From Sphingomonadaceae bacterium (GTDB lineage: Bacteria; Pseudomonadota; Alphaproteobacteria; Sphingomonadales; Sphingomonadaceae), in assembly GCA_009926135.1 (NCBI GenBank), contig RFPL01000001.1, positions 1 through 64,000 on the forward strand: a stretch of 64,000 bases of DNA, read 5' to 3'. The translations under genes were made by a program, and so were the position numbers. The notes beneath the pieces are model-generated. The model saw nothing but the letters and a program-made list of their open reading frames with translations. It was not told the DNA's origin and ran no database searches. Positions 2,989-28,175 of the stretch are shown here, in pieces. Position 1 is the first letter of the stretch; the number at the start of each line of letters is the position of its first letter.

Positions 2989-4098
2989 ATGACTATTCGA
3001 TTCTTTCCGGGATTGCGGTTAGTTTCGCCGCTTTTCCTCGTGACGGTCGCGCTTCCGACTTTGGTGGCAATTGCCTATTATGGTCTGCTTGCCTCAGACG
3101 TCTATATCTCTGAATCGAAGTTCGTCGTTCGCAGCCCCGACAAGCCAGCAGTGGGTGGGGTTGGGATTCTTTTGAAAACTGCCGGATTTTCGAACGCAGG
3201 CGAGGAGCTTCACGCTACCCAGGAGTTTATCCGTTCGAGAGATGCGCTAAACGGGCTAAACAAGAATAACTATTACTGGAAGATATACAGTTCTGATGCC
3301 ATCTCTCTATTTGATCGATTCGGCAGCTTCAACCTCCGCCCGAGCTTTGAAGATCTATATTATTATTTTCAGAACAAGGTCAATGTGCGCTACGACTCTA
3401 TTTCTTCAATTACCACTTTGACCGTACGCGCCTATACCCCCAATGACGCCAGAAAGATCAATGAAGATCTGCTCGTGATGGCCGAGAAAACCGTGAACCG
3501 CCTTAATCAACGGGGCCGGCAGGACCTGATCGAGACTGCATTGGCAGAAGTCAACCAAGCGAAAGAGGCCGCCGCCGATTCGGCCGGGAGGCTGGCTCGG
3601 TACCGCAATCGTAGCGGAATCGTGGACCCGGAAAAGCAGGCCGAAGTGCAGTTGCAGATGGTTTCAAAGCTGCAGGATGAGCTTATTGCAAACCGGACGC
3701 AGCTTGCCGAACTTCGTAACTATGCCCCATCGAACCCCCAGATAGCCGCGCTGAAGGCGCGCATCGACAGCTTACAACAACAAGTTGACAAGGAAGTGGG
3801 CAAGGTCGTTGGCGGAAGCGGGTCCCTTGCGGGCGAGATCGAACAGTATCAGGCTCTTGTGCTTGAGGACCAATACGCTTCCAAGCGACTGTCGGCGTCG
3901 ATGGCAGCTTTGCAGGAAGCCGAAGCCGAAGCACGGCGCAAGCACGCCTATGTGGAGCGCATAGCCCAGCCTAGCCTGCCAGACGAGGGAGCAGAACCAC
4001 GCCGCCTACGAGGCATTTTCGCTACTTTTGTGCTGGGATGTGTGGCATGGGGCATCATTGCTCTGCTGTTCGCAGGCGTGCGCGAGCACAGGGACTGA
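2989..4098 (+). CDS. kpsE: Capsule export inner-membrane protein, KpsE/CtrB family
   Basis: This 369-residue protein belongs to the polysaccharide co-polymerase type 3 family (KpsE, BexC, CtrB). A transmembrane segment lies near residues 10-33. A periplasmic region includes SESKFVVRSPDKP and a long helical, coiled-coil-prone stretch at about 170-325. A second transmembrane segment lies at about 343-363 with a short cytoplasmic tail. Such proteins span the periplasm and link the KpsM/KpsT ABC transporter to the outer-membrane channel. It is followed directly by kpsM and kpsT. The 195 bases upstream contain no gene and probably hold the promoter; a TTGACA lies at 2839-2844 but no convincing -10 follows. 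Length is normal for the family. Confidence 0.9.
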   Translation: MTIRFFPGLRLVSPLFLVTVALPTLVAIAYYGLLASDVYISESKFVVRSPDKPAVGGVGILLKTAGFSNAGEELHATQEFIRSRDALNGLNKNNYYWKIYSSDAISLFDRFGSFNLRPSFEDLYYYFQNKVNVRYDSISSITTLTVRAYTPNDARKINEDLLVMAEKTVNRLNQRGRQDLIETALAEVNQAKEAAADSAGRLARYRNRSGIVDPEKQAEVQLQMVSKLQDELIANRTQLAELRNYAPSNPQIAALKARIDSLQQQVDKEVGKVVGGSGSLAGEIEQYQALVLEDQYASKRLSASMAALQEAEAEARRKHAYVERIAQPSLPDEGAEPRRLRGIFATFVLGCVAWGIIALLFAGVREHRD

Positions 4099-4104
4099 TT
4101 GCGA

Positions 4105-4899
4105 ATGAGGCAGGCGACGGCCGATCTGTTTCGTTCACTCGCGATCCAGCGAAGGGTCGTTTTCGCCCTTTTCATGCGCGAAACCATGACTCGTTACGGG
4201 CGACACAACATCGGGTTCCTTTGGCTATTTGTTGAACCCATGATTTTTACTCTGGGGATCACCTTCCTGTGGACCGCGATGAAATCGGTCCACGGGTCGG
4301 ATCTTCCAATCACGCCATTTGCTTTGACCGGCTATTCTGCGGTGCTGCTGTGGCGCAACATGCCAGCCAGAACAATCGGGGCGATCCCTCCCAACCTGTC
4401 ATTGATGTATCACCGCAACGTCCGTGTGATGGACATCTACATCGCCCGACTTCTGCTTGAGGCAGTGGGAGCGACAATGTCCTTCGTTCTGCTAGGCGTA
4501 TTGTTCATCTTTCTCGGCATGATTGACCCCCCGGAGGATCTGCTGAAGGTGGCCGGAGGGTGGCTTCTACTCGCCTATAATGGCATCTCGATGGCTTTGA
4601 TGATCGGCACGCTCTCGGAAAGATCAGAACTCGTCGACAAGATCTGGCACCCATTAGCCTATCTTATTTTCCCCCTGTCGGGCGCCGCCTTCATTGTAGA
4701 GGCTCTGCCGCATGACGCACAGCAGGCCGTGCTTTACATTCCGATGGTCCATGGGCTCGAATATCTTCGCGAAGGTTTCTTTGGTTCGAAGTTCCACCCC
4801 GTCTACGATCTTAGTTACATGATCCTGGTCGCGACCGGGATGCTGTTAATTGGTCTCGTGCAAATGCGAACCGTCGCGCGACTGGTTGTGCCGGAATGA
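4105..4899 (+). CDS. kpsM: Capsule ABC transporter permease, KpsM family
   Basis: This is an ABC-2 type membrane protein of about 264 residues with six predicted transmembrane segments. It opens with the family's cytoplasmic RRVVFALFMRETMTRYG region and contains GFLWLFVEPM, both typical of KpsM/BexB/CtrC. It forms the inner-membrane pore through which lipid-linked capsular polysaccharide is flipped. The ATG at 4105 is preferred because GGGA at 4091-4094 is well spaced; an in-frame TTG at 4099, right after the kpsE stop, is possible. Its 3' end overlaps the kpsT ATG by four bases, implying translational coupling of permease and ATPase. Confidence 0.92.
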   Translation: MRQATADLFRSLAIQRRVVFALFMRETMTRYGRHNIGFLWLFVEPMIFTLGITFLWTAMKSVHGSDLPITPFALTGYSAVLLWRNMPARTIGAIPPNLSLMYHRNVRVMDIYIARLLLEAVGATMSFVLLGVLFIFLGMIDPPEDLLKVAGGWLLLAYNGISMALMIGTLSERSELVDKIWHPLAYLIFPLSGAAFIVEALPHDAQQAVLYIPMVHGLEYLREGFFGSKFHPVYDLSYMILVATGMLLIGLVQMRTVARLVVPE

Positions 4900-5597
4900 A
4901 CGCCCCTGCAGTTGCCTTGGAAGCGCCCCCCAGCGAACAGCGCGGCATTTTTCTGCACAATGTTTCAAAGGTTTATCCCACTCAGCACAGCACAGTTAAG
5001 ATTTTCGACCACGTTGATCTAGACATCCGATATGGCGAGAAGCTTGGCGTTCTCGGTCGCAATGGTGCCGGCAAGTCGACCCTCATGCGCCTGATTAGTG
5101 GCTCCGAATTGCCAACCGGAGGCGTCGTCGACCGCCGCATGAGCACCTCCTGGCCGCTTGCACTCGGGGGCGGGTTTCAGGGTTCACTAACCGGGATGGA
5201 CAACATTCGCTTCATTAGCAGGGTCTACGATCTTGACCTTGAAGCGGCAGTGGCATTCGTTGAAGAGTTTACCGAGCTTGGCCGGTATCTGCGCGAGCCG
5301 GTAAAGATTTACTCCAACGGGATGCGCGCCCGGCTTGCCTTCGCGATCTCCATGGTGGTCGAATTCGATTGCTTCCTGATCGACGAAGTCATCGCTGTCG
5401 GCGATCAGAGGTTCAGGGAAAAGTGCCAAGCTGAACTCTTCGAACGCCGCGGCGACAGGGCAATGGTCATCATCTCGCATGACGCGGAATTCGTGAAGCA
5501 TTATTGCGAAAGGGCGGTTGTGATTCATGATAAAACGGTGCGACATTTTCCTTCTGTCATGGAAGCGTATGACTTCTATTTGGAACATATAGCGTGA
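4896..5597 (+). CDS. kpsT: Capsule ABC transporter ATP-binding protein, KpsT family
   Basis: This 233-residue ATPase energises KpsM. It shows a Walker A motif GRNGAGKST near residue 54, the KpsT-type signature YSNGMRARLAFA replacing the usual LSGGQ, a Walker B ending FLIDEV, and the switch histidine in ISHD. The degenerate signature and the short length are characteristic of the capsule/O-antigen exporter subfamily (KpsT, BexA, CtrD, Wzt without the carbohydrate-binding tail). No C-terminal carbohydrate-recognition domain is present, so export is expected to be independent of chain-end recognition, as in Kdo-linked capsules. The ATG overlaps the kpsM stop, and the stop overlaps the next gene's GTG. 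Confidence 0.93.
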   Translation: MNAPAVALEAPPSEQRGIFLHNVSKVYPTQHSTVKIFDHVDLDIRYGEKLGVLGRNGAGKSTLMRLISGSELPTGGVVDRRMSTSWPLALGGGFQGSLTGMDNIRFISRVYDLDLEAAVAFVEEFTELGRYLREPVKIYSNGMRARLAFAISMVVEFDCFLIDEVIAVGDQRFREKCQAELFERRGDRAMVIISHDAEFVKHYCERAVVIHDKTVRHFPSVMEAYDFYLEHIA

Positions 5598-7415: not shown

Positions 7416-8561
7416 GTGATCCTCAATCTGGGCCTTGCAGTTGATGCGCTTTCACCGGCTCTGACTGGCATAGGGCGCTACTGCTGGGAACTCGTCTCCC
7501 GGGTGCCCGGCCAACCCGAGATCGAGAGCGCCACCTACTGGCGCGGCAACGATCGAATACTCCATCCAGAGCGCCTGTTGCGTGGCAATCGTTCCAGCCT
7601 GACGCCCCGAGCAAGATTTCGGCGTTGGGGGCTTCGACGGATCCGGAGTGCCGGCCTGATTGGGGACTCGGCACTTTGGCCTCGCCGACACGGTGTGCAG
7701 TTGTTTCACGGCCCCAATTTCATGCTGCCGCCCTGGGTCGAAAGCGGCGTGATTACGGTCCATGACCTGTCGGTGTTCCTCCTCCCTGAGACTCATCCCG
7801 CCGCCCGTATCCAAGCGTTCGAACATAGCTTTCGGGACTCGCTGGAACGAGCCCGGAGAATAATAACTCCATCGCAAACCATCAGACGTGAACTTGCCGA
7901 ATTTGCGGGCATCGCTCCGGATTTGATCAGTGTTGTACCCATGGGGGTGAGCCGGGCTTTCGCGCCTGTCTATCACGAGGACCGTCGGGCCATCCTAGCG
8001 CGGCTTGGCCTGCCAGAAGGTGGCTATGCGCTTACACTTGCCACGCTTGAACCACGCAAACGGATTGACCGCCTTCTGGACGCATGGCGGATCCTGCCCG
8101 AAGGTCTACGCCTGCGCTTCCCCCTGGCCATTGCCGGGGCGAGTGGTTGGGAAAACGCAGCCCTGCAAGAGCGGATCGGCGAGGCCGTGGCTGAAGGTTG
8201 GGCCATTGCCCTGGGATATGTCGATGACGCCGACTTGCCAGCGCTCTACAGCGGGGCGCACGCTTTCATTTACCCATCCATGTACGAAGGCTTCGGAATG
8301 CCGCCGATCGAAGCAATGGCATGCGGCGTGCCCGTGGCTGTAGCCAATTGCTCATGTCTACCCGAAATCAGTAGCGGCGCTGCCGCCCTGATCAATCCCG
8401 AGGATCCGGAAAGCACTGCTGCTTCTCTCGCTGAAGTACTGACCGACGAAGTGTGGCGCGCTTCAGCGGTCGAACGCGGTTTCGAAGTAGCCGCAAGTTA
8501 CAGCTGGGAACGCTGCATTTCCGAAACAGTTGCGGTCTACTCGCTGGCAGCAGGGCTCTAA
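7416..8561 (+). CDS. Glycosyltransferase, GT4 family (mannosyltransferase-like)
   Basis: This 381-residue GT-B enzyme begins LGLAVDALSPALTGIGRY, typical of GT4 enzymes that use GDP-mannose or similar donors. It contains FHGPNFMLP and VHDLSVF in the acceptor domain, then ATLEPRKRIDRL and the catalytic YEGFGMPPIEAM in the donor domain. The start is a GTG at 7416 with no strong ribosome-binding site; no better start keeps the N-terminal motif. Its stop region overlaps by four bases the end of the convergent sulfotransferase gene. The product probably adds a sugar to the capsule repeat; the donor is not certain, and GDP-mannose is an intermediate of the gmd-fcl pathway in the same locus. Confidence 0.88.
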   Translation: MILNLGLAVDALSPALTGIGRYCWELVSRVPGQPEIESATYWRGNDRILHPERLLRGNRSSLTPRARFRRWGLRRIRSAGLIGDSALWPRRHGVQLFHGPNFMLPPWVESGVITVHDLSVFLLPETHPAARIQAFEHSFRDSLERARRIITPSQTIRRELAEFAGIAPDLISVVPMGVSRAFAPVYHEDRRAILARLGLPEGGYALTLATLEPRKRIDRLLDAWRILPEGLRLRFPLAIAGASGWENAALQERIGEAVAEGWAIALGYVDDADLPALYSGAHAFIYPSMYEGFGMPPIEAMACGVPVAVANCSCLPEISSGAAALINPEDPESTAASLAEVLTDEVWRASAVERGFEVAASYSWERCISETVAVYSLAAGL

Positions 8562-9172
8562 CAGTAGTATCCGAGCTCGTGCATCAGATCACCATGCAGA
8601 GCATCGAACTGCTTGAGTTGCTCGGCGGTCAATTCCGCAGAATTCTTCGCGTTGCTACCGCTCCGAAAGAAGTCGGGCGAGGTCTTTTGCAGTTTCGCGA
8701 AATCGCCCTTGAAACCGCCCGTCGGAGTTGTGCCGAGGAACTCCGCCAGTTGCTCAATCGCCTCTTCCGGGCGGGCAACGACCTCTTCGAAACGCAGCAG
8801 GAGAGTATTACCTCTTCGTCCGGGGTTCCAGCCCCCAAAATGGGACGACCACGATCCGAACGGCGTTTGTCCATCGATTATCGACTCGAGCGAGCGCTCG
8901 AACTCGAACCGGCGGCAATAGTGATAATACGAGACAATCGCAGCACGCCCATCCCGAACGATATAGATTGCTGGTTGCGCATCGGTTTCGATGTCGTGAG
9001 TCTTGACGATCCGAAAAAGGTCCGGTGATGCACGTCCAAGCGCCGTTCCGAAAGCTTCGGAAAACGCGCTATAGTCCTCATCGTACTTGCTGCCGACCTT
9101 CGTACCGAAACCCGCGTTCAGTAGCACGCGAAGAAAGGTGTTTCCGGACCTAGGGTAAGATGCAAGCCACAT
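8558..9172 (-). CDS. Sulfotransferase (PAPS-dependent)
   Basis: This 204-residue protein carries both PAPS-binding signatures of the sulfotransferase fold. The 5'-phosphosulfate loop SYPRSGNTFLR is at residues 5-15, and the 3'-phosphate site is in YIVRDGRAAIVSYYHY near residue 70. A strand with RFEEVVARPEEAIEQ follows, as in carbohydrate and sulfotransfer_1 families. At 204 residues it is short but has the full core. It is transcribed opposite to its neighbours with a GAGGG ribosome-binding site upstream of the ATG. It may sulfate capsule sugars, making the polymer more acidic, but small-molecule or glycolipid acceptors remain possible. No PAPS-synthesis genes are in the window. Confidence 0.85.
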   Translation of the reverse strand: MWLASYPRSGNTFLRVLLNAGFGTKVGSKYDEDYSAFSEAFGTALGRASPDLFRIVKTHDIETDAQPAIYIVRDGRAAIVSYYHYCRRFEFERSLESIIDGQTPFGSWSSHFGGWNPGRRGNTLLLRFEEVVARPEEAIEQLAEFLGTTPTGGFKGDFAKLQKTSPDFFRSGSNAKNSAELTAEQLKQFDALHGDLMHELGYYC

Positions 9173-19074: not shown

Positions 19075-20361
19075 ATGGCACAAATGTACAGCGGCCCGGA
19101 TCGATCAAGAACTGTGAGTTTTTCAGTGCTACACACCTTCAGTCGCAAGTCCCCCAGTACGCGCAACCGCCCTGTCCCGTTGTCCTTCACGGGGGCGTCT
19201 CTAATGGCACTATTGCTGGCGGGCTGCTCGTCGCTTGGCGGTGACGGCCCAACAACGAAGCGGATTGCTGCGGCCGAGGGGCAGGCACTGCTTGCCGCCC
19301 AGATTGAAGTCGTCAACCTAGACAGTGCGGTGACCGAGAGGCTTCAGGCATTTCATTCGCTTCCGCTGTTTTCGGATACTTTCGGAGAAGTACCACCGAC
19401 GGGCAGTGTGATTGGCCCGGGGGACGTTCTCGAAGTTTCAATCACCGAGGCCCCACCAGCAGTTCTCTTCGGGGGGGCATCAGGCGACAGCGCCTTGCGC
19501 AATCCCACCGCTGCATCGAATGTGCAGTCGGTGTCTTCGTCACGTGGCTGGACCTCGCCACAACAAGTGATCGATACCGAAGGGACAATCTTTGTGCCCT
19601 TTGCCGGCACGATCCCTGTCGCTGGCCGCAGCCCGCGGCAGATCGAACAGACAATTACTGATCGTCTGCGCGGCAAGGCCCACCAGCCACAAGTCATCGT
19701 GCGTCGGGTCGGCAATTCGGCCGCTACGGTCACCGTTCTAGGCGAAGTCGGTCAAAGCGGTCGCGTGCCGATCTCGGCGCATGGCGAGCGTCTCCTGGAA
19801 ATCATTGCTGCCGCCGGCGGTCCGAAACAGCCTCTAACCAAGACCCTGGTGCAAATTAGCCGGAACCAGCAAGTCTATGCCCTGCCGATGGGAGTGGTGA
19901 CACAGGACCCTCGGCAGAACATCGTCATGCAGCCAAACGATGTAGTGGCATTGCTGTTCCAGCCTTACACCTTCACGGCGCTGGGCGCGACCGGCCAGAG
20001 CAATGAGATTTCGTTCGAAGGCCCCGGCTTCAACCTTGCAAATGCACTAGGACGGATCGGCGGACTGGATGAAAACCGGGCCGATCCAAAGGGTGTATTC
20101 GTTTTCCGGTTTGAGGATCCCTCTGTGCTCAATGCAGCCAGTATTGCCGGTAAACCTCGTACAGCAGACGGCAAGGTTCCAGTCATTTACCGGATCGATT
20201 TGCGATCGCCCGCGAACCTGTTTTTGATCCAGCGATTCCCGATTAAACAGAATGATGTTTTGTTTGTCTCAAATGCTCCGCTTGTCGACTTCACGAAGTT
20301 CCTGGGGATTATTACGTCGACTGTGTTCTCCGTAGCCGGAATCGTAAATCTAGCGCAGTGA
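19075..20361 (+). CDS. Outer-membrane polysaccharide export lipoprotein (KpsD/Wza-like OPX)
   Basis: This 428-residue secreted lipoprotein has a hydrophobic segment ending in the lipobox LLAGC near residue 51. A Poly_export domain includes GPGDVLEVSI (about residue 114) and GTIFVPFAGTIPVAG. SLBB-type repeats follow, with VTVLGEVGQSGRVPI and LLEIIAAAGG. It ends in a hydrophobic stretch FLGIITSTVFSVAGIVNL. The OPX family forms the periplasmic and outer-membrane channel through which capsule exits, partnered by the KpsE-type protein. The ATG at 19075 gives an unusually long n-region; a GTG at 19114 is an alternative. It is separated from kpsEMT by about 13.5 kb, so the export machine is split within the locus. 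Confidence 0.88.
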   Translation: MAQMYSGPDRSRTVSFSVLHTFSRKSPSTRNRPVPLSFTGASLMALLLAGCSSLGGDGPTTKRIAAAEGQALLAAQIEVVNLDSAVTERLQAFHSLPLFSDTFGEVPPTGSVIGPGDVLEVSITEAPPAVLFGGASGDSALRNPTAASNVQSVSSSRGWTSPQQVIDTEGTIFVPFAGTIPVAGRSPRQIEQTITDRLRGKAHQPQVIVRRVGNSAATVTVLGEVGQSGRVPISAHGERLLEIIAAAGGPKQPLTKTLVQISRNQQVYALPMGVVTQDPRQNIVMQPNDVVALLFQPYTFTALGATGQSNEISFEGPGFNLANALGRIGGLDENRADPKGVFVFRFEDPSVLNAASIAGKPRTADGKVPVIYRIDLRSPANLFLIQRFPIKQNDVLFVSNAPLVDFTKFLGIITSTVFSVAGIVNLAQ

Positions 20362-20438
20362 GCGATTAATTAGCGAAGCATCGATGGCAGCTTTAGCCCG
20401 ATATGGCGCGACACTGGCCGTTTTGAGGAATGATACTA

Positions 20439-21575
20439 ATGTCGGAAAACGTGGCGGGAAGAGTCGCCCTGATTACTGGGGTTACTGGACAGGACGGCTC
20501 CTATCTTGCGGAGTTCTTGCTGCAGAAAGGCTATGAAGTTCACGGTATCAAGCGTCGTTCTTCGTTGTTCAATACACAGCGGGTCGATCATATTTACGCC
20601 GACCCGCACGTAGAGCACGCCAAGTTCAAGCTGCATTACGGCGATCTGAGTGACACCTCAAATCTAACCCGCATCATGCAGGAGGTTCAGCCCGACGAAG
20701 TCTATAACCTGGGCGCGCAAAGCCATGTAGCTGTGAGCTTCAGTGCACCAGAGTATACGGCAGATGTTGATGGCATCGGCACCTTGCGCCTGCTGGAAGC
20801 CATCCGCTTGCTCGGGCTGCAACAGAAGACCCGATTCTATCAAGCCTCGACCTCGGAACTGTACGGTCTGGTGCAAGAGATTCCGCAAAGGGAGACTACA
20901 CCCTTCTATCCGCGCTCCCCTTACGCCGTGGCGAAGCTCTATGCTTATTGGATTACCGTGAACTACCGCGAGGCATATGGCCTGTTCGCTTGCAACGGAA
21001 TCCTCTTCAATCACGAGAGCCCGCGGCGCGGCGAAACCTTTGTAACTCGCAAGATTACGCGCGGTCTTGCAAACATCAGCCAAGGACTGGAGTCCTGCTT
21101 GTTCATGGGCAACCTGGATGCCTTGCGTGACTGGGGCCATGCCAAGGACTACGTCCGGATGCAGTGGCTGATGTTGCAGCAAGATCAGCCTGAGGATTTC
21201 GTCATAGCAACCGGGCAACAGCACTCGGTCCGCGAATTTATCCAGTGGTCAGCCGAGGAACTAGGCATTGCCTTGCGTTTTGAAGGCACCGGGATCGAAG
21301 AAGTCGGTATCGTTGATACCGTAACCGGCAATATCTCAACTTCGGTAAAGCCCGGCGATGTGATTGTTCGGGTCGATGAGCGGTATTTCAGACCAGCCGA
21401 GGTGGAAACGCTGTTAGGTGATCCAGCGAAGGCCAAGGAAAGCCTTGGCTGGTACCCCGAGATTTCTGCTCGCGAGATGTGTTCGGAAATGGTCGCCTCA
21501 GATCTCGCCTTGGCACGCCGCCACGCGTTGTTGAGGGCCCATGGCCTCGATGCGCCTGTCTCTATCGAAAGCTGA
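20439..21575 (+). CDS. gmd: GDP-mannose 4,6-dehydratase
   Basis: This 378-residue extended SDR converts GDP-D-mannose to GDP-4-keto-6-deoxy-D-mannose. Diagnostic motifs are [17 protein letters not shown] (NADP binding), [34 protein letters not shown], the catalytic Y-x3-K in SPYAVAKLY, and [13 protein letters not shown]. The ATG at 20439 is preferred because GAGGA at 20424-20428 is correctly spaced; the in-frame ATG at 20430 is too close to it. It is followed after nine bases by the GDP-fucose synthase gene. Together they supply GDP-L-fucose for the polymer. Confidence 0.97.
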
Positions 21576-21584
21576 GGTAACGGC

Positions 21585-22538
21585 ATGTCCATTTTTGTCG
21601 CAGGGCACCGGGGCATGGTTGGATCTGCTATCCTGCGCCAGCTTGAAGCACGCGGCCACACTCCAGTGGTAAGAACCCGTGAAGAGCTAGATCTTGCAGA
21701 CCAGGCGGCAGTACGGGTCTTTTTTGAAGAAACAAAACCAGACGCAGTGATACTGGCGGCTGCCCGGGTCGGTGGCATTCATGCCAACAACACATACCCT
21801 GCGGACTTCATTTACGAAAACTTGATGATCGAATGCAACGTGATTCATCAGGCATTCCGCGCAGGCGTCCGGCGGCTTTTGTTTCTTGGCTCGTCTTGCA
21901 TTTATCCGCGGTCTGCAGCGCAGCCAATGGCGGAAAGTGCGCTGCTAACTGGGGTGCTCGAGCCAACAAACGAACCCTATGCGATAGCGAAGATTGCTGG
22001 AATCAAGCTGTGTGAAAGCTATAATCGGCAACACGGGACCGACTTTCGCAGCGTGATGCCGACCAACCTTTACGGACCAGGCGACAACTTTCATCCAGAG
22101 AACTCGCACGTGCTCCCTGCCCTGATCCGTCGCTTCCACGAGGCGGTCATTGCCCAGCGCGATAGCGTAACAATATGGGGGACTGGGACCCCGAGACGGG
22201 AATTCCTCCACGTTGACGACATGGCCGCCGCCTCGCTCTTCGTTATGGATCTCGATCAGGAAACTTACCTGGCCAACACCGATCCCATGCTTAGTCACAT
22301 CAATGTTGGCTGCGGTAGCGATGTGACAATTGCCGAGTTGGCAACCATCATTGCCGAAGTAGTAGGATATCGAGGTGAAGTCTGCTTCGATACCACAAAA
22401 CCGGACGGCACTTCGCGCAAACTGATGGATGTAAGTCGCCTAACGAGCATGGGCTGGAATTCGCGGATCAGTCTCGAGCACGGCATTGCGAGTACTTTTG
22501 AATGGTTTCTCGACAACCAATCCAAGCTCAGGATTTGA
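21585..22538 (+). CDS. fcl: GDP-L-fucose synthase
   Basis: This is a 317-residue SDR epimerase-reductase of the WcaG/Fcl type. Features are [13 protein letters not shown] (NADPH binding), the SSCIYPR motif, the Y-x3-K in [10 protein letters not shown], and [19 protein letters not shown]. It performs 3,5-epimerisation and 4-reduction of the Gmd product to GDP-L-fucose. It follows gmd by nine bases with a GAGGT ribosome-binding site, so it is co-translated with its pathway partner. No fucosyltransferase can be singled out from the neighbouring transferases. Confidence 0.97.
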
Positions 22539-22659: not shown

Positions 22660-23646
22660 GTGGATAACAAGATCGATTCCGTTGACGAAGTCCTCAAGCG
22701 CGGCCGCGAGGTTATCTCGGCCGAGGCGGACGCCCTCGGCCAGCTGGCCCTGCTACTTGACGGAGCGTTTCCAGAAGCCTGCGCTGCGATCAACCAAGTC
22801 CGCCGCCAGTTGGTAGTGACTGGCATGGGTAAGTCCGGCCATATTGCCCGGAAGGTTGCCGCCACCTTCGCCGCCACCGGGACCCCGGCAATCTATATCC
22901 ATCCAAGCGAGGCCGGGCACGGCGACCTTGGCATGCTTAGCACGGGCGATGTGCTGCTGGTCTTCTCGAATTCTGGCAATACCCCGGAATTGCGCGCGAT
23001 ACTGAGCTATGCCCGCAAGAAGCAGATCCCGATCATCGGCGTAGCTGCCCGGAGGAACTCGCTGCTAATCGATTTGGCCGACATCCAGTTGCTGCTGCCG
23101 CGTATACCCGAAGCCTGCCCGGTGAGCGTCGCGCCGACCACTTCGACGACCATGCAACTGGCACTCGGCGATGCCCTGGCCATGACCGTCATGGACCTAC
23201 GCGGCGTGTCGAAGAACCACCTGCGCGCATTGCATCCGGCCGGGTCGATCGGCCTGGCGCTCGCTCCAGTCAGCGAGATCATGCACGGCGCGGACCGGCT
23301 GCCGCTGGTCAGCGAAGACGCCGGGATGCCCGAGGCGATCTCGGTCATGACTTCGGGCTGCTTCGGACTGGCCGGAGTGATCGATCGCACCGGCACGCTG
23401 GTCGGCATCATCACCGATGGTGATTTGCGGCGGCGCTTCGGCGTGCTGACCACGGCCTTTGCGCGCGAAGTCATGACCCAGGCGCCGAAGGTCATCCCCG
23501 CCGACATGCCCGCTGGCGAAGCCCTGGTCTTCCTTAACGACAACAAGATCACCGCCGCCTTTGTGGTCGAGGATGCGGAGGTTGGCCCACGCTTGCCACT
23601 GGGGATCATCCATATCCACGATCTGCTGCGCCACGGGCTCAACTGA
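22660..23646 (+). CDS. kpsF: D-arabinose-5-phosphate isomerase (KpsF/KdsD family)
   Basis: This 328-residue enzyme has an N-terminal SIS domain (VVTGMGKSGHIARKVAATFA, IHPSEAGHGDLG, FSNSGNTPELRAIL) and two C-terminal CBS domains with the SEIMHG and AREVMTQAPKVIP boundaries. It isomerises ribulose-5-phosphate to arabinose-5-phosphate, the first committed step of Kdo synthesis. The GTG start at 22660 lies after a 121-base A/T-rich spacer that probably carries the promoter for the whole kpsF-kdsB-kdsA-kpsC-kpsS run. With kdsA and kdsB here it supplies CMP-Kdo; kdsC (the 8-phosphate phosphatase) is not in the window. Confidence 0.95.
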   Translation: MDNKIDSVDEVLKRGREVISAEADALGQLALLLDGAFPEACAAINQVRRQLVVTGMGKSGHIARKVAATFAATGTPAIYIHPSEAGHGDLGMLSTGDVLLVFSNSGNTPELRAILSYARKKQIPIIGVAARRNSLLIDLADIQLLLPRIPEACPVSVAPTTSTTMQLALGDALAMTVMDLRGVSKNHLRALHPAGSIGLALAPVSEIMHGADRLPLVSEDAGMPEAISVMTSGCFGLAGVIDRTGTLVGIITDGDLRRRFGVLTTAFAREVMTQAPKVIPADMPAGEALVFLNDNKITAAFVVEDAEVGPRLPLGIIHIHDLLRHGLN

Positions 23647-23654
23647 ACCGGGCG

Positions 23655-24458
23655 ATGACACCCGATTTCGCGATCCTGATTCCGGCGCGCTATGCCTCGA
23701 CCCGCTATCCGGGCAAGCCGTTGGCCCTGCTGCGCGGCGCGGATGGCGCTGCGCACAGCCTGATCGAACGCAGTTGGCGCGCGGCAACGGCCGTCGCCCC
23801 GACCGAACGGGTCTGGGTGGCGACTGACGATAGTCGTATTGCCGATGCCGTGCGCAGCTTTGGCGGGCAGGTGGTGATGACGCCTGAAAGCTGCCGCAAT
23901 GGCACCGAACGCTGTGCTGCCGCCTTGGACGTGCTGGGCGAGATCGCGCCGGTGATCGTCAATTTGCAGGGTGATGCCCCGCTGACTCCGGCTTTCGTCG
24001 TCAGCGATCTGGTCGCCGCCCTCGCTGCCGACCCGGCTGCAGCCATGGCGACGCCCGCGGTGGAATGTTCGGCCAGCCTCTATACGCACCTGATCACTGA
24101 CCAGGCCGCCGGGCGCGCCGGCGGAACGACCGTGGTGGCCGATGCCAGCGGACGCGCGCTCTATTTTTCCAAGCGCGTCATTCCGCACCTACCCGCCAGC
24201 GCGCCAGACGCACATGCGGCTGTCCGGCTGCACCTTGGGGTCTATGCCTACCGCCCCGCTGCGCTGGCCAGCTATGCCGCGCTTGAACCCACGCCGCTCG
24301 AGCTGTGCGAGGGGCTGGAGCAGCTCCGGTTCCTGGAGAGCGGCCAGCCCATTCGCCTGGTTCCCTTCCCGGCACTGGAGTGGGACTGCATCGAGCTAAA
24401 CAACCCGGAAGACGTGCCAGCGATAGAAGCCATTTTGCAGGCGCGCGGCATCCGCTAA
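23655..24458 (+). CDS. kdsB: CMP-Kdo synthetase (3-deoxy-manno-octulosonate cytidylyltransferase)
   Basis: This 267-residue nucleotidyltransferase opens [20 protein letters not shown], the CTP-binding N-terminus of KdsB. It has [13 protein letters not shown] and a pyrophosphate/metal motif at about residue 100. In that motif it reads LQGDAP instead of the usual Q-G-D-E-P; the aspartate is kept but the adjacent acid is lost. RPAAL and the C-terminal [10 protein letters not shown] are normal. It couples Kdo to CMP so that KpsC and KpsS can use it. It follows kpsF by eight bases and precedes kdsA by eight bases, so these are clearly one operon. Confidence 0.93.
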
Positions 24459-24466
24459 GAGGCGGC

Positions 24467-25303
24467 ATGACCGGTCCAACCGTAACCCTGCCTGGCGGCA
24501 TCGCCCTGGCCAATCATTTGCCGCTGGCGCTGATCGCCGGCATGAACGTAATCGAGGACCGCGCGGTCCTGCACGAGGTGGCCGCACATTTCGTCGAAGT
24601 GACCGGGCGGCTCGGCATTCCCTATGTCTTCAAGGCCAGTTTCGACAAGGCCAACCGCTCGTCGCTGGCCTCGTTCCGAGGTCCCGGGCTGGAGGCAGGG
24701 CTGGCCGAGCTGGCCGAGGTAAAGGCTCGGTTCGGCGTTCCGGTGCTGACCGACGTGCACGAGCCATGGCAGGCCGAGGCCGTGGCCGAAGTTGCCGATA
24801 TCCTGCAACTGCCGGCCTTCCTTGCCCGCCAGACCGACCTAGTTGCGGCGCTGGCCCGCACCGGCAAGCCGATCAACATCAAGAAGCCGCAGTTTCTTGC
24901 GCCAGAGGAAATGCGCCACATCATCGCCAAATGCCGCGAGGCGGGTAATTCCCAGGTCCTGCTGTGCGAACGCGGATCGAGCTTCGGCTACAACAACCTA
25001 GTGGTCGACATGTTGGGCATCGACCTGATGAAGCCGATGGCGCCGGTGATCTTCGACGTGACCCATGCCCTGCAGAAGCCGGGCGGGCGGGCCGACAGCG
25101 CAGACGGACGCGGCGCCCAGACCGCAGCGCTGGCCCGGGCCGGGGTAGCAGTCGGCATCGCCGGCCTGTTTCTTGAAGCCCATCCTGATCCCGCCACGGC
25201 GAAATGCGATGGTCCGAGCGCACTGCCGCTGCGCGAACTGGAGCCGCTGTTGCGCCAACTCATCGCCGTGGACGCTGCCGTGAAGCCGGGAACCGCGGCT
25301 TGA
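24467..25303 (+). CDS. kdsA: Kdo-8-phosphate synthase
   Basis: This 278-residue TIM-barrel synthase condenses phosphoenolpyruvate with arabinose-5-phosphate. Nearly all family motifs are intact: [68 protein letters not shown] and FDVTHALQ. The N-terminal AGMNVIED has Asn where metal-dependent KdsAs have Cys, which places it in the metal-independent class. The ATG at 24467 follows AGAGG; upstream in-frame codons belong to kdsB read in another frame. Its stop overlaps the TTG of kpsC. Confidence 0.96.
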
Positions 25304-26916
25304 GCAAGCCGTTCCTGCAAATCCCCCCCTTCCCCGGCGGCAGGGGCCTGTCCATTGTCCAGCCGGGGGCCAGCACCTTTGCACCTGACGAGGCGCGGAG
25401 GTTGTTGACCGCAAACAGGGTGGGAGGGGCATTCTGGGCACCGCCCGTCACGGTAAAGGCCGGGTGCGAACTGGTTCTGGTGCCCGGTAATGCTGCCGAG
25501 CTGGCCGTGATGCTGCGGAACCTCAAGGACCCAGGGGTCACCATCGTCGTGCCGCCGGGCCTGCGCCGGCCCACGGGCTATGCATTAATCGAAGGCCCGT
25601 TCGATCCCTGGCACGTGGCCAGTCAGGCCAGCGAAGTCTGGGCCGGGACCGATCGCGAGCTTGCCACAGTCGCGGCCCTGCTGGGCAAGCCGGTGCGCTT
25701 GTTCGACGCCGAGCGAGCGGCGCGACAGCAGCCCGACCTGATCAAGGCGCTGGAGCACGAGCTTGCCGCCAGTCAGTATTCCAGCCCGTTCGACGGCCAG
25801 CCCTGGTCCCTTGCTCAGGCAATCGAGCAGCTGGGCGAATGGCGCCGGCTGATCGACGGCAATCGCGCCTTTCGCGCGGTCTATGGCGTGGCGCGGTGGA
25901 AGCGTGTTTCGGTCGACCCGCTGCTATGGGACGGGACTGGTCCAGTGCGTCATGCCCGGCGGCTGATCCCCGGCCTAACAGTTGGTACGCCGGTCGTGGC
26001 CTGGAAATCGCGTACTGCCCCTGCCTTGCTTTCAGCGATTGAAGCAGCCGGAGCCGCAATTGCCGAACTGGAAGACGGCTTTATCCGCTCTGTCGGGCTA
26101 GGTGCAAACTGCGTTCCCCCATTGAGCATAATTGCCGACAGAACAGGGGTTTATTTTGATCCGAACGCAAGCAGCGACCTTGAACGACTGCTTGAATGCG
26201 GTGAACTGCCCCCCCGGTGGGTCGAGCGGGCCGGAGAATTGCGAAGAACACTCGTTCGGGCTGGAATAAGCAAGTATGGGCAAGGAGAAGTAACCGCGCC
26301 GCCTGCTGTGGGGCCAGGTCGGCGAATACTTGTAACCGGACAAGTTGAGGACGACCGATCGGTGCTGAGCGGAGGGGCAAATTGCACTAACCTAGAGCTG
26401 ATCGCCAAGGCGCGCGCGCTCGAACCAGATGCGTGGATCGTCTACAAGCCGCACCCCGATGTTGAAGCGGGGCATCGCAAGGGACACGTCCCTGATGCGG
26501 AAGCTCTTCGTTACGCCGATACGATTGAGCGGCAGACGCCGATTGGCGCGCTGATCGAGCAGGTCGATGCGCTCCACGTGATCACTTCGCTGGCCGGATT
26601 CGAAGCCCTGCTGCGCGGCAAGGCCGTGACCACCCATGGCCAGCCGTTCTATGCTGGCTGGGGCCTGACGCGCGACATGGGTCCAGCCAACCCGCGCCGC
26701 ACGCGCCGCCGCAGCCTAGATGAACTCGTGGCCGCCACGCTGATCGGCTATCCGCGTTACGTCGATCCGGTGACCCGTCTGCCCTGCCCGCCTGAAGTGC
26801 TGGTTCAGCGGATCGCAGCAGGCCAGGCCCGCGTGTCCTCCCCGCTGATTGTCCTGCGCGAATGGCAGGGGCGTCTGCGACTGCTATGGCAGCGGCTATC
26901 GGGAGGACGGCGATGA
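25300..26916 (+). CDS. kpsC: KpsC-like Kdo transferase with one intact module
   Basis: This protein of about 538 residues belongs to the KpsC/LipB capsule family. Residues about 230-500 form a complete module: [18 protein letters not shown] (about 257), [29 protein letters not shown] (about 384), and [13 protein letters not shown] with FYAGWGLT. Residues 1-200 look like a shrunken copy of a first module: a stretch ending [13 protein letters not shown] matches the end of the family repeat, but no EDGF or HPD motif is present. Characterised KpsC proteins are about 675 residues with two modules. The start is a TTG inside the kdsA stop (TTGA), implying coupled translation. It should add Kdo to the lipid acceptor primed by KpsS. 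Confidence 0.87.
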
Positions 26917-28175
26917 GTGCCCAGTGGACCCCGCGCCGCGAATTCCTGTTCCTGCAGGGCCCGCCGGGTCCGTTCTTCCGCGAACTGGCTACCGCGCTCG
27001 CCGAGCATGGTTGCGGCGTGCACCGGATCAACCTGTCTGGCGGTGACCGCTATGACTGGCCAGACGCGGCGACCAATTATCGCGGCCGCAAACGCAACTG
27101 GCCGATGTTCCTTGACCGGTACCTGCGCGCGCACAACATCACCGACATGGTGCTGTTCGGCGATTGCCGGCCGATGCACCAGGCCGCCCTGCGCATGGCC
27201 CAGCTGCGCGGAGTCCACATCCACGTCTACGAGGAAGGCTACATCCGCCCGGACTGGATGACGCTGGAACGCGACGGCGTGAACGGCCATTCGCCGATGG
27301 AGCGGGATCCGCAAACGATCCTGGCTGAGGCCAGCCAACTGCCGCCAATCCCCCAGCTGCCGGCGATTACCGCCGAATTCAGGCGGCGCGCACGCGATTC
27401 CTATTGGCACTACCACCACGTGGTGACCGGGCGCTGGCAGTTCCCGTTCTATCGCACACACCGCCAAGGTTCGATCATCCTCGACGGGATTGGCTGGCTC
27501 TGGCGCCTCTCGCTGCGGGCGCGGCGCCAGCGCCAGGCTTTGGAGACCCTGGCCGCGATTGCCGGGAGAGAGTTCTTCGTCTTTCCGCTCCAGCTGACCG
27601 GGGACTACCAGATCCGGCATCACTCGCCGTTCGGCTCGATGCACGTCGCGGTCGATTATGTGCTGGAAAGCTTCGCCCGCTTTGCCCCGGCGGAAACGGT
27701 GCTGCTGGTCAAGGAACACCCGCTCGACAGCGGCTACACCAACTGGCGCGCCTATCTGCTGGCCAAGGCACAGCGGCTGGGCGTCGCCGGACGGGTCTAT
27801 CACATTGACGGGGGAGAGCTTGACGATCTCTCGGCCGCGGCCAAGGGCATGGTCTGCGTCAATAGTACCTCGGCCACGCTGGCGCTCGAAGTGGGTACGC
27901 CGGTATCCGTGCTGGGCGATGCCATCTATGACATCAAGGGGATCACCCACAGCGGCGGGCTCGACAGTTTCTGGGCACGCCCCACTCCCCCCGATGCCGA
28001 ACTTTATGCCGCCTTCAAGCGGGTGCTCCACGCCAAGTGCCTGGTCCGTGGCGGCCTTGCCAGCGCCTCTGCCACGGCAATCCTGGTCCGCAATTCGGTT
28101 GCCAGGCTCCTGTCCGACGACTTGCCCCCGGTGCGCCAGAGCGAGCCGGCGCGGATCGTCCGTGCGGTCGGCTAA
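26913..28175 (+). CDS. kpsS: KpsS-like Kdo transferase
   Basis: This 420-residue capsule synthesis protein starts with FLFLQGPPGPFFRELATAL, the typical N-terminus of KpsS. It has INLSGGDRYDWP, VLFGDCRPMHQAA, HVYEEGYIRPDWMTLE, LLVKEHPLD (the H-P motif) and CVNSTSATLALE. In characterised systems KpsS adds the first Kdo to lysophosphatidylglycerol at the inner face of the membrane, starting the linker. The ATG at 26913 overlaps the kpsC stop (ATGA) and has an excellent GGGAGG site. Length and motifs are complete. Confidence 0.93.
   Translation: MSAQWTPRREFLFLQGPPGPFFRELATALAEHGCGVHRINLSGGDRYDWPDAATNYRGRKRNWPMFLDRYLRAHNITDMVLFGDCRPMHQAALRMAQLRGVHIHVYEEGYIRPDWMTLERDGVNGHSPMERDPQTILAEASQLPPIPQLPAITAEFRRRARDSYWHYHHVVTGRWQFPFYRTHRQGSIILDGIGWLWRLSLRARRQRQALETLAAIAGREFFVFPLQLTGDYQIRHHSPFGSMHVAVDYVLESFARFAPAETVLLVKEHPLDSGYTNWRAYLLAKAQRLGVAGRVYHIDGGELDDLSAAAKGMVCVNSTSATLALEVGTPVSVLGDAIYDIKGITHSGGLDSFWARPTPPDAELYAAFKRVLHAKCLVRGGLASASATAILVRNSVARLLSDDLPPVRQSEPARIVRAVG

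Follow-up and report, generated by a model that had tools for sequence, protein, structure and literature searches.

A KpsC-like protein with one intact Kdo-transferase module and a predicted non-catalytic remnant of the other in a Sphingomonadaceae capsule locus

The capsule locus

The window, i.e. the whole stretch of 64,000 nucleotides that was analysed (from genome G000), carries an open reading frame at positions 25300–26916 of the plus strand, which encodes a KpsC-like protein of 538 amino acids. Its TTG start codon at 25300 overlaps the stop codon of kdsA, and its own stop codon overlaps the ATG of kpsS at 26913. An ATG at position 25204 lies inside kdsA and is thus an unlikely start of kpsC. 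Genes kdsD, kdsB and kdsA are directly upstream, and genes for KpsE-, KpsM- and KpsT-like proteins and for an outer-membrane export protein are found farther upstream:

2989–4098, plus strand: kpsE-like inner-membrane export protein (TIGR01010, E 3.8e-99, below cut-off; without a Pfam match)
4099–4899, plus strand: kpsM-like ABC permease (NF050053, E 1.4e-26, below cut-off; PF01061)
4896–5597, plus strand: kpsT-like ABC ATPase (PF00005; polysaccharide-export ATPase models, below cut-off)
19075–20361, plus strand: KpsD/VexA-type outer-membrane polysaccharide export protein (PF02563; PRK15175, below cut-off)
22660–23646, plus strand: kdsD/kpsF, arabinose-5-phosphate isomerase (TIGR00393, 241.5 bits, above cut-off)
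23655–24458, plus strand: kdsB, CMP-Kdo synthetase (NF003950, 303 bits, above cut-off)
24467–25303, plus strand: kdsA, Kdo-8-phosphate synthase (TIGR01362, 364.5 bits, above cut-off; start inferred from the open reading frame)
25300–26916, plus strand: kpsC-like gene, between the overlapping kdsA and kpsS (PF05159, E 6.7e-41)
26913–28175, plus strand: kpsS, first-Kdo transferase (NF050054, E 1.7e-69, below its cut-off; PF05159, 3.5e-67)

The KpsMTE, outer-membrane export (OPX), KpsS and CMP-Kdo supply genes are present together, with the Kps equivalog models matching below their own cut-offs. By these matches the region appears to be a complete group 2-like capsule locus of the ABC-transporter type. 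A sulfotransferase gene (PF00685, positions 8558–9172, minus strand) is situated within the capsule region and suggests a sulfated polymer. Two sugar-nucleotide epimerase-like genes (positions 20430–22538) adjoin the export gene and are read as gmd and fcl (GDP-fucose synthesis).

A search of the window genome for WaaA gave no PF04413 match, and KdsA has a single match genome-wide, inside the capsule operon. With WaaA unmatched and the only KdsA in the operon, the Kdo made appears to be dedicated to the capsule pathway.

The two modules of the KpsC-like protein

In E. coli, KpsS places the first Kdo, after which KpsC-C (2->7) and KpsC-N (2->4) alternate to give 5–9 Kdo residues, according to the accessible part of PMC10148158; a K5 study argues for odd Kdo numbers only (PMC7694667, accessible part). 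The corresponding features of the window protein are:

25300–25875, plus strand: N-region, residues 1–192, predicted non-catalytic remnant of a KpsC-N (beta-2,4) module (profiles, fold, motif loss)
25810–25863, plus strand: predicted helix, residues 171–188, with conserved WR..ID.NR (secondary structure, conservation)
25876–26874, plus strand: KpsC-C-type beta-(2->7)-Kdo transferase module, intact by sequence, residues 193–525 (residues, tree, profiles, fold)
25876–26085, plus strand: acceptor-domain part of the C module (C profile 44.5 bits, N profile 22.7)
26071–26076, plus strand: EDGF with putative catalytic base Glu258 and Asp259 (alignment; role by PMC10148158)
26341–26355, plus strand: QXXXD motif, Q348–D352, with putative nucleophile Asp352 (alignment; role by PMC10148158)
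26452–26457, plus strand: HP motif, His385-Pro386 (alignment)
26842–26898, plus strand: C-terminal helix, residues 515–533, at the position of the KpsC amphipathic membrane helix (predicted structure)

By analogy with the KpsC described in PMC10148158, the helix at residues 171–188 may, from its position, be the inter-module linking helix, and that at 515–533 may have the role of the amphipathic membrane helix.

The first-pass annotation had read the gene as a KpsC with one intact Kdo-transferase module, and the motif positions bear this out. The protein has one copy each of EDGF, SKY, Q(VED)D and HPD, all in the C-terminal module (E258/D259, K325/Y326, Q348/D352 and H385/P386). The start given for that module (residue ~230) needs correction, as the intact module starts near residue 193.

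All residues looked for in a working C-terminal module (equivalents of W42, E66/D67, K133/Y134, QXXXD and HP) are present. In an alignment of 74 C-type modules, equivalents of W235, E258/D259, K325/Y326, Q348/D352, H385/P386 and R393 are kept in 29/29 modules from dual proteins and 45/45 from single-module proteins. The Tyr93 equivalent is Tyr in 28/29 dual and 30/45 single C modules, and otherwise His. An AlphaFold2 model of the whole protein (pLDDT 90.9, pTM 0.90) aligns with KpsC structures at Z = 30.8–32.8; in this VIA-align comparison the 2,4 transferases reach 32.8 and the 2,7 transferase 6mgd 30.8, and such scores do not separate the two types.

In PMC10148158 (accessible part), linkage specificity is assigned to the 70 residues at the start of a module. 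Acceptor-domain profiles score 58/58 single-module proteins as C type, and in leave-one-out controls the same profiles sorted 18/18 dual N and 18/18 dual C modules correctly. In a module tree of 68 rows, a 100/100 branch separates 20/20 N-modules from the C-modules, and the single modules, including that of the window, group with the latter. A phmmer search with the 78-residue acceptor domain of the window protein, on the other hand, weakly matched KpsC-N structures (E 0.012) and found no KpsC-C structure. When the controlled profile test and the tree are set against the phmmer result, the working module is, on balance, predicted to be of the beta-(2->7) type.

Three positions of the C module differ between the two kinds of protein. 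Asn327, which follows the catalytic Lys-Tyr, and Thr427 are each present in 29/29 dual C-modules; Asn327 is replaced by Gly/Ala in 20/45 single-module proteins and Thr427 by Val in 22/45. Tyr285, (nearly) invariant in the 29 dual C-modules, is His in 15/45 single ones. By our reading, two of the three lie next to residues that PMC10148158 names as donor or adduct residues, and the shifts could reflect an altered specificity. The changes at residues 327 and 427, otherwise invariant, accompany loss of the first module.

The N-region has neither acceptor domain nor base Glu, nucleophile Asp or HP motif. The first-pass annotation took the first ~200 residues to be a worn-down first module, which agrees with three comparisons in which KpsC-N is the best match: PDB profile search, profile-profile alignment and fold. 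A 29-sequence profile of residues 1–205, run against 177,635 PDB sequences, gave E. coli KpsC-N as its best match (6mgc, residues 199–327, E 1.3e-5; best stretch of the match taken alone, E 2.7e-4), and up to E 10 the same profile matched neither KpsC-C (6mgd) nor the KpsC-N of Thermosulfurimonas dismutans (6mgb). The N-region as a lone query sequence found no PDB relatives and one chance match. In profile-profile alignments, where E-values are pairwise, a 20-sequence N-region profile matched the N-modules of nine dual proteins at 96.4% (E 1e-9, 100 columns), as compared with 40.2% (E 2.9e-4, 60 columns) for the C-modules of those nine proteins.

The predicted fold points the same way. AlphaFold2 gave a mean pLDDT of 87.8 for the N-region alone. 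The predicted fold of residues 1–205, compared with both module types, shows VIA Z values of 11.7 (8fux), 11.4 (6mgb and 6mgc) and 10.8 (8fuw) against 2,4 transferases, and 8.9 against the 2,7 transferase 6mgd; a missing fold match was never counted as evidence. In the structural alignment, residue 1 of the model corresponds to residue 65 of E. coli KpsC-N (matches start at residue 64 or 65). The start of the protein thus falls near the former end of the acceptor domain, which is lost together with its Glu66 base. From the sequence profiles and the predicted fold, residues 1–192 descend from a beta-(2->4) KpsC-N module.

By our reading of the alignment, 'LLRxPPFPG' of the remnants matches the segment after EDG in intact modules, 'RVGGxFW' occupies the place of '.LSKYN', and 'DPWxLL' matches 'NPWSLL'. 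Among 43 rows, P9, F11, P12, G42, G43, W46, W104 and N188 of the N-region are invariant, and D102, D119, R182 and others nearly so. These conserved positions do not make up the known KpsC motifs.

Loss of the motifs extends to the relatives. None of four patterns (EDG, QXXXD, HP, SKY) is present in any of 58 single-module N-regions (53 informative, as five have <100 residues), while in the C modules of these proteins the four patterns are found in 58, 56, 58 and 50. As a control, N-modules of dual proteins were scanned with these patterns, and 18/18 contain at least one motif (12, 15, 11 and 12 by motif). By aligned position, E66, D67, K133, D160, H194 and P195 are kept in all aligned dual N-modules (30 rows, frame-split ones left out and one gene present twice), the exceptions in the catalytic set being Q156 to L in one gene and Y134 to T in six. 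The set is not kept at the aligned columns in the window protein, L124, L125, L127, L153, L155, L158, L161, L171 and L181, where single letters coincide at D160 (L127, L153), Q156 (L155, L171) and D67 (L171); L163 and L172 were put aside as unclear. The residues of a working N-terminal module are therefore not found in the window protein, and, as judged from these columns, the remnant is catalytically dead. A complete catalytic first module was looked for in alignment and structure and none was found, nor does any of the 58 single-module homologues have the motifs twice.

Distribution and evolution of the single-module form

In a sample of the family, 68 of 298 genomes have a KpsC match, and 59 of these have one working module and nine a dual-module protein. 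(The 59 are made up of 57 loci, that of the window, and G232 with its gene in two frames; L073, a second locus of G071, and L072, a second region of G242, were left out of the census.) A single-module kpsC spread over two frames is seen in the assemblies of L060 (G232) and L074.

In a collection of named relatives the best 80 of at least 556 were taken, a sample which is biased towards the window. An intact first module was found by profile in 12 of the 80: L120, L126, L132, L139–L141, L144, L146–L148, L151 and L152 (L141 and L147 are absent from the motif table). It was not found in the remaining 68, among which L074 is frame-split and L110 and L129 begin at a contig end. Sphingobium sp. SYK-6 (L108) has the same single-module architecture as the window.

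An even sample at class level gave a match in 27/387 genomes, 20 with a KpsC-type C module and seven weak or other. Eight of the 20 are of the single-module type (G000, G329, G361, G458, G481, G507, G517 and G532), ten are dual with N motifs and two are unclear (G450 = L172 and G635 = L163). A KpsS-strength match is present in 6/7 of the other one-module genomes; G481 has one PF05159 match only, and KpsS was not detected there. Two more PF05159 proteins, both weak (43 and 34 bits), occur in G329. The single-module state is thus shared widely, including elsewhere in Alphaproteobacteria, and is not peculiar to the window genome.

Two other loci may be mentioned. G517 has two KpsC copies (L158 and L181), both with motif-less first modules; the other sampled loci of its family (f34) are intact dual modules. 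In Caldovatus (L153), a second protein of 442 aa (ORF L153_-0_5913; KpsC-N profile 236 bits, very long branch) lies beside the one-module KpsC.

Several proteins show the first module in other states of reduction. In L125 and L127, from two Alphaproteobacteria MAGs, the first module is of full length but does not have the catalytic set, and shorter remnants are found in a Syntrophobacteraceae MAG (L124) and in Caldovatus (L153); these four are intermediates of first-module loss. L071 (G242, same genus as the window) encodes a KpsC-C of 352 residues with hardly any N-region, on a branch different from that of the window gene, and four further family members (L048, L058, L059 and L062) have N-regions of <60 residues. 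The careful 68-row tree requires three changes for the single state, one of them forced by starred branches. A quick 74-row C-module tree gives six changes, three of them forced (SH-aLRT >=95); this tree has SH-aLRT support alone, without bootstrap, and leaves out L163 and L172, and the long rows L171 and L173 are unsure in the count. The N-module was likely lost more than once, and some dual forms may have been regained by transfer.

Nucleotide substitutions show constraint on the remnant. In 42/42 pairs the N-region has an omega below 1 (median 0.32, range 0.09–0.89); the C-module median is 0.18. The N/C ratio is above 1 in 42/42 pairs (median 1.91, lowest 1.01), whereas the corresponding ratio in 12 pairs of dual proteins has a median of 0.91 (0.50–1.54; three pairings in which the pattern found one EDG only were skipped). 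Between the window and L074, its closest named relative among the matches listed, omega is 0.25 and 0.13. A simple counting method was used and many dS values are high, but the 26 pairs with dS <1.2 agree; the pair L026/L053 was omitted from the summary (undefined dS). Since omega is below 1 and the ratio is above that of dual proteins, the remnant is under relaxed yet real purifying selection. Its role may be structural, as a docking site for the C module or partner proteins.

Consequences for the Kdo linker

The first-pass annotation proposed that loss of one module would require either a different linker pattern or another enzyme for one of the two alternating linkages. The window genome, given as 100% complete, has no Capsule_synth (PF05159) proteins beyond KpsS and the KpsC-like protein when all candidates are scored. 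A hidden standalone KpsC-N was thus not found in this genome, and the KpsC is not split between two proteins. In 59 single-module genomes of the family, with up to four candidates scored in each, one KpsC-type gene was found per genome and no separate KpsC-N; second pieces in G072, G158, G212 and G232 are beside or within the same gene. A second family scan with all candidates scored gave no separate KpsC-N among the matches listed. Since KpsS is the only other protein of the family in the window genome, a changed linker pattern is preferred here to a second KpsC-family enzyme.

The proposed course of events is as follows. The ancestral beta-(2->4) KpsC-N would have lost its acceptor domain and catalytic residues and would persist as a folded non-catalytic domain joined to a fully equipped beta-(2->7) KpsC-C module. 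KpsS would place the first beta-Kdo on phosphatidylglycerol (PG), and the KpsC-like enzyme would add one beta-(2->7)-Kdo by double displacement, with Asp352 as nucleophile, Glu258 as base and His385 as acid. As there is no beta-(2->4) module, growth would stop at PG-Kdo-(2->7)-Kdo, and this would be the starting point for the capsule-specific glycosyltransferases. That a KpsC with a single working module ends growth at this two-Kdo stage, instead of making an alternating chain, is the reading we hold to be probable.

A C module of broadened or changed acceptor specificity might alone make a longer oligo-Kdo chain with (2->7) linkages only. The replacements at residues 327, 427 and 285 are in line with this, but the acceptor domains are still ordinary C type in 58/58, the acceptor and catalytic residues named in the KpsC literature are, apart from Y93, the same in 45/45, and E. 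coli KpsC-C with an inactive N-module recognises only (2->4)-ended disaccharide acceptors in the in vitro assays of PMC10148158 (accessible part); such a chain is unlikely, if the most credible of the alternatives. Somewhat more doubtful is a normal alternating linker whose (2->4) linkages come from an unrelated Kdo transferase elsewhere. Kdo transferases without recognisable sequence similarity are known (KrkA, GT140; PMC12887879, accessible part), and T. dismutans divides its modules between proteins (PMC10148158). Against this, the PF05159 proteins of the window genome are KpsS and the KpsC-like protein only, one KpsC-type gene was counted per genome in the 59 single-module genomes at the scoring depth given above, and in a Pfam scan of 14 window open reading frames the glycosyltransferases apart from KpsC and KpsS are of GT4 or GT2 type.

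Kdo transfer by the N-region itself through relocated residues is very improbable. The fold is confidently predicted and under purifying selection, but the acceptor domain is missing (the start being equivalent to residue 65), the catalytic columns hold other letters or gaps, and the region's own conserved positions are unlike known motifs. There is equally little to be said for a decaying or misassembled dual-module kpsC. With the C module as yardstick, evolution of the N-region is roughly twice as rapid as in dual-module proteins (1.91 against 0.91), and a few relatives (L060, L074) have broken frames; yet dozens of separate assemblies share the architecture, with frames open and motifs conserved, and N-region omega stays below 1 in every pair. 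A pseudogene or an assembly error is rejected on the family survey and the omega values.

The two-Kdo linker can be compared with known systems. The window protein shares with E. coli KpsC (GT107, dual module) a C module with all catalytic residues, an adjacent KpsS, the same locus type and an N-module, here a remnant, in N-terminal position. It differs in that its N-module is without acceptor domain and catalytic residues, so that beta-(2->7) activity alone would be expected. A one-module KpsC is in print for T. dismutans, where both modules are separate polypeptides (PMC10148158, accessible part). The likeness to T. dismutans is one working module of the same type per protein; the differences are that its beta-(2->4) module is a separate protein (6mgb), for which no counterpart was found in the window genome, and that the window's working module carries an attached non-catalytic N-domain. 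The Vi capsule of Salmonella Typhi, anchored through VexE, is likewise of ABC type and deviates from the poly-Kdo linker, as the window's would; according to the accessible part of PMC12220298, Vi is without KpsS and KpsC, whereas the window has both genes.

A literature search turned up neither a KpsC whose first module is dead nor a one-module KpsC from Alphaproteobacteria; the 2016 and 2019 KpsC papers were outside its scope. The accessible part of PMC10148158 describes the Kdo linker as conserved in almost all ABC-dependent capsules, and states that Trp42, Glu66 and Asp67 show absolute conservation across all KpsC homologues, in both modules. The present proteins make up a natural family of wide occurrence; one of their modules is dead, and no substitute for it was seen within the same family. 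There is perhaps an even chance that a large group of Alphaproteobacteria, including most of the KpsC-bearing family genomes sampled, builds ABC-exported capsules on a fixed PG-Kdo-(2->7)-Kdo, with the dead module kept as a scaffold or length brake. If this is true, loss of KpsC-N, probably repeated, would break the supposedly conserved, odd-numbered, alternating poly-Kdo anchor. The linker length needed by capsule glycosyltransferases and the KpsMT exporter then becomes testable. A short linker remains compatible with the KpsM cryo-EM density, which shows one clear Kdo and weaker density fitting two to three more (PMC11041684, accessible part). The proteins are also potential natural single-linkage enzymes for glycoengineering. 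The capsules of the window bacterium and of many relatives may thus hang on a linker much shorter than the textbook one.
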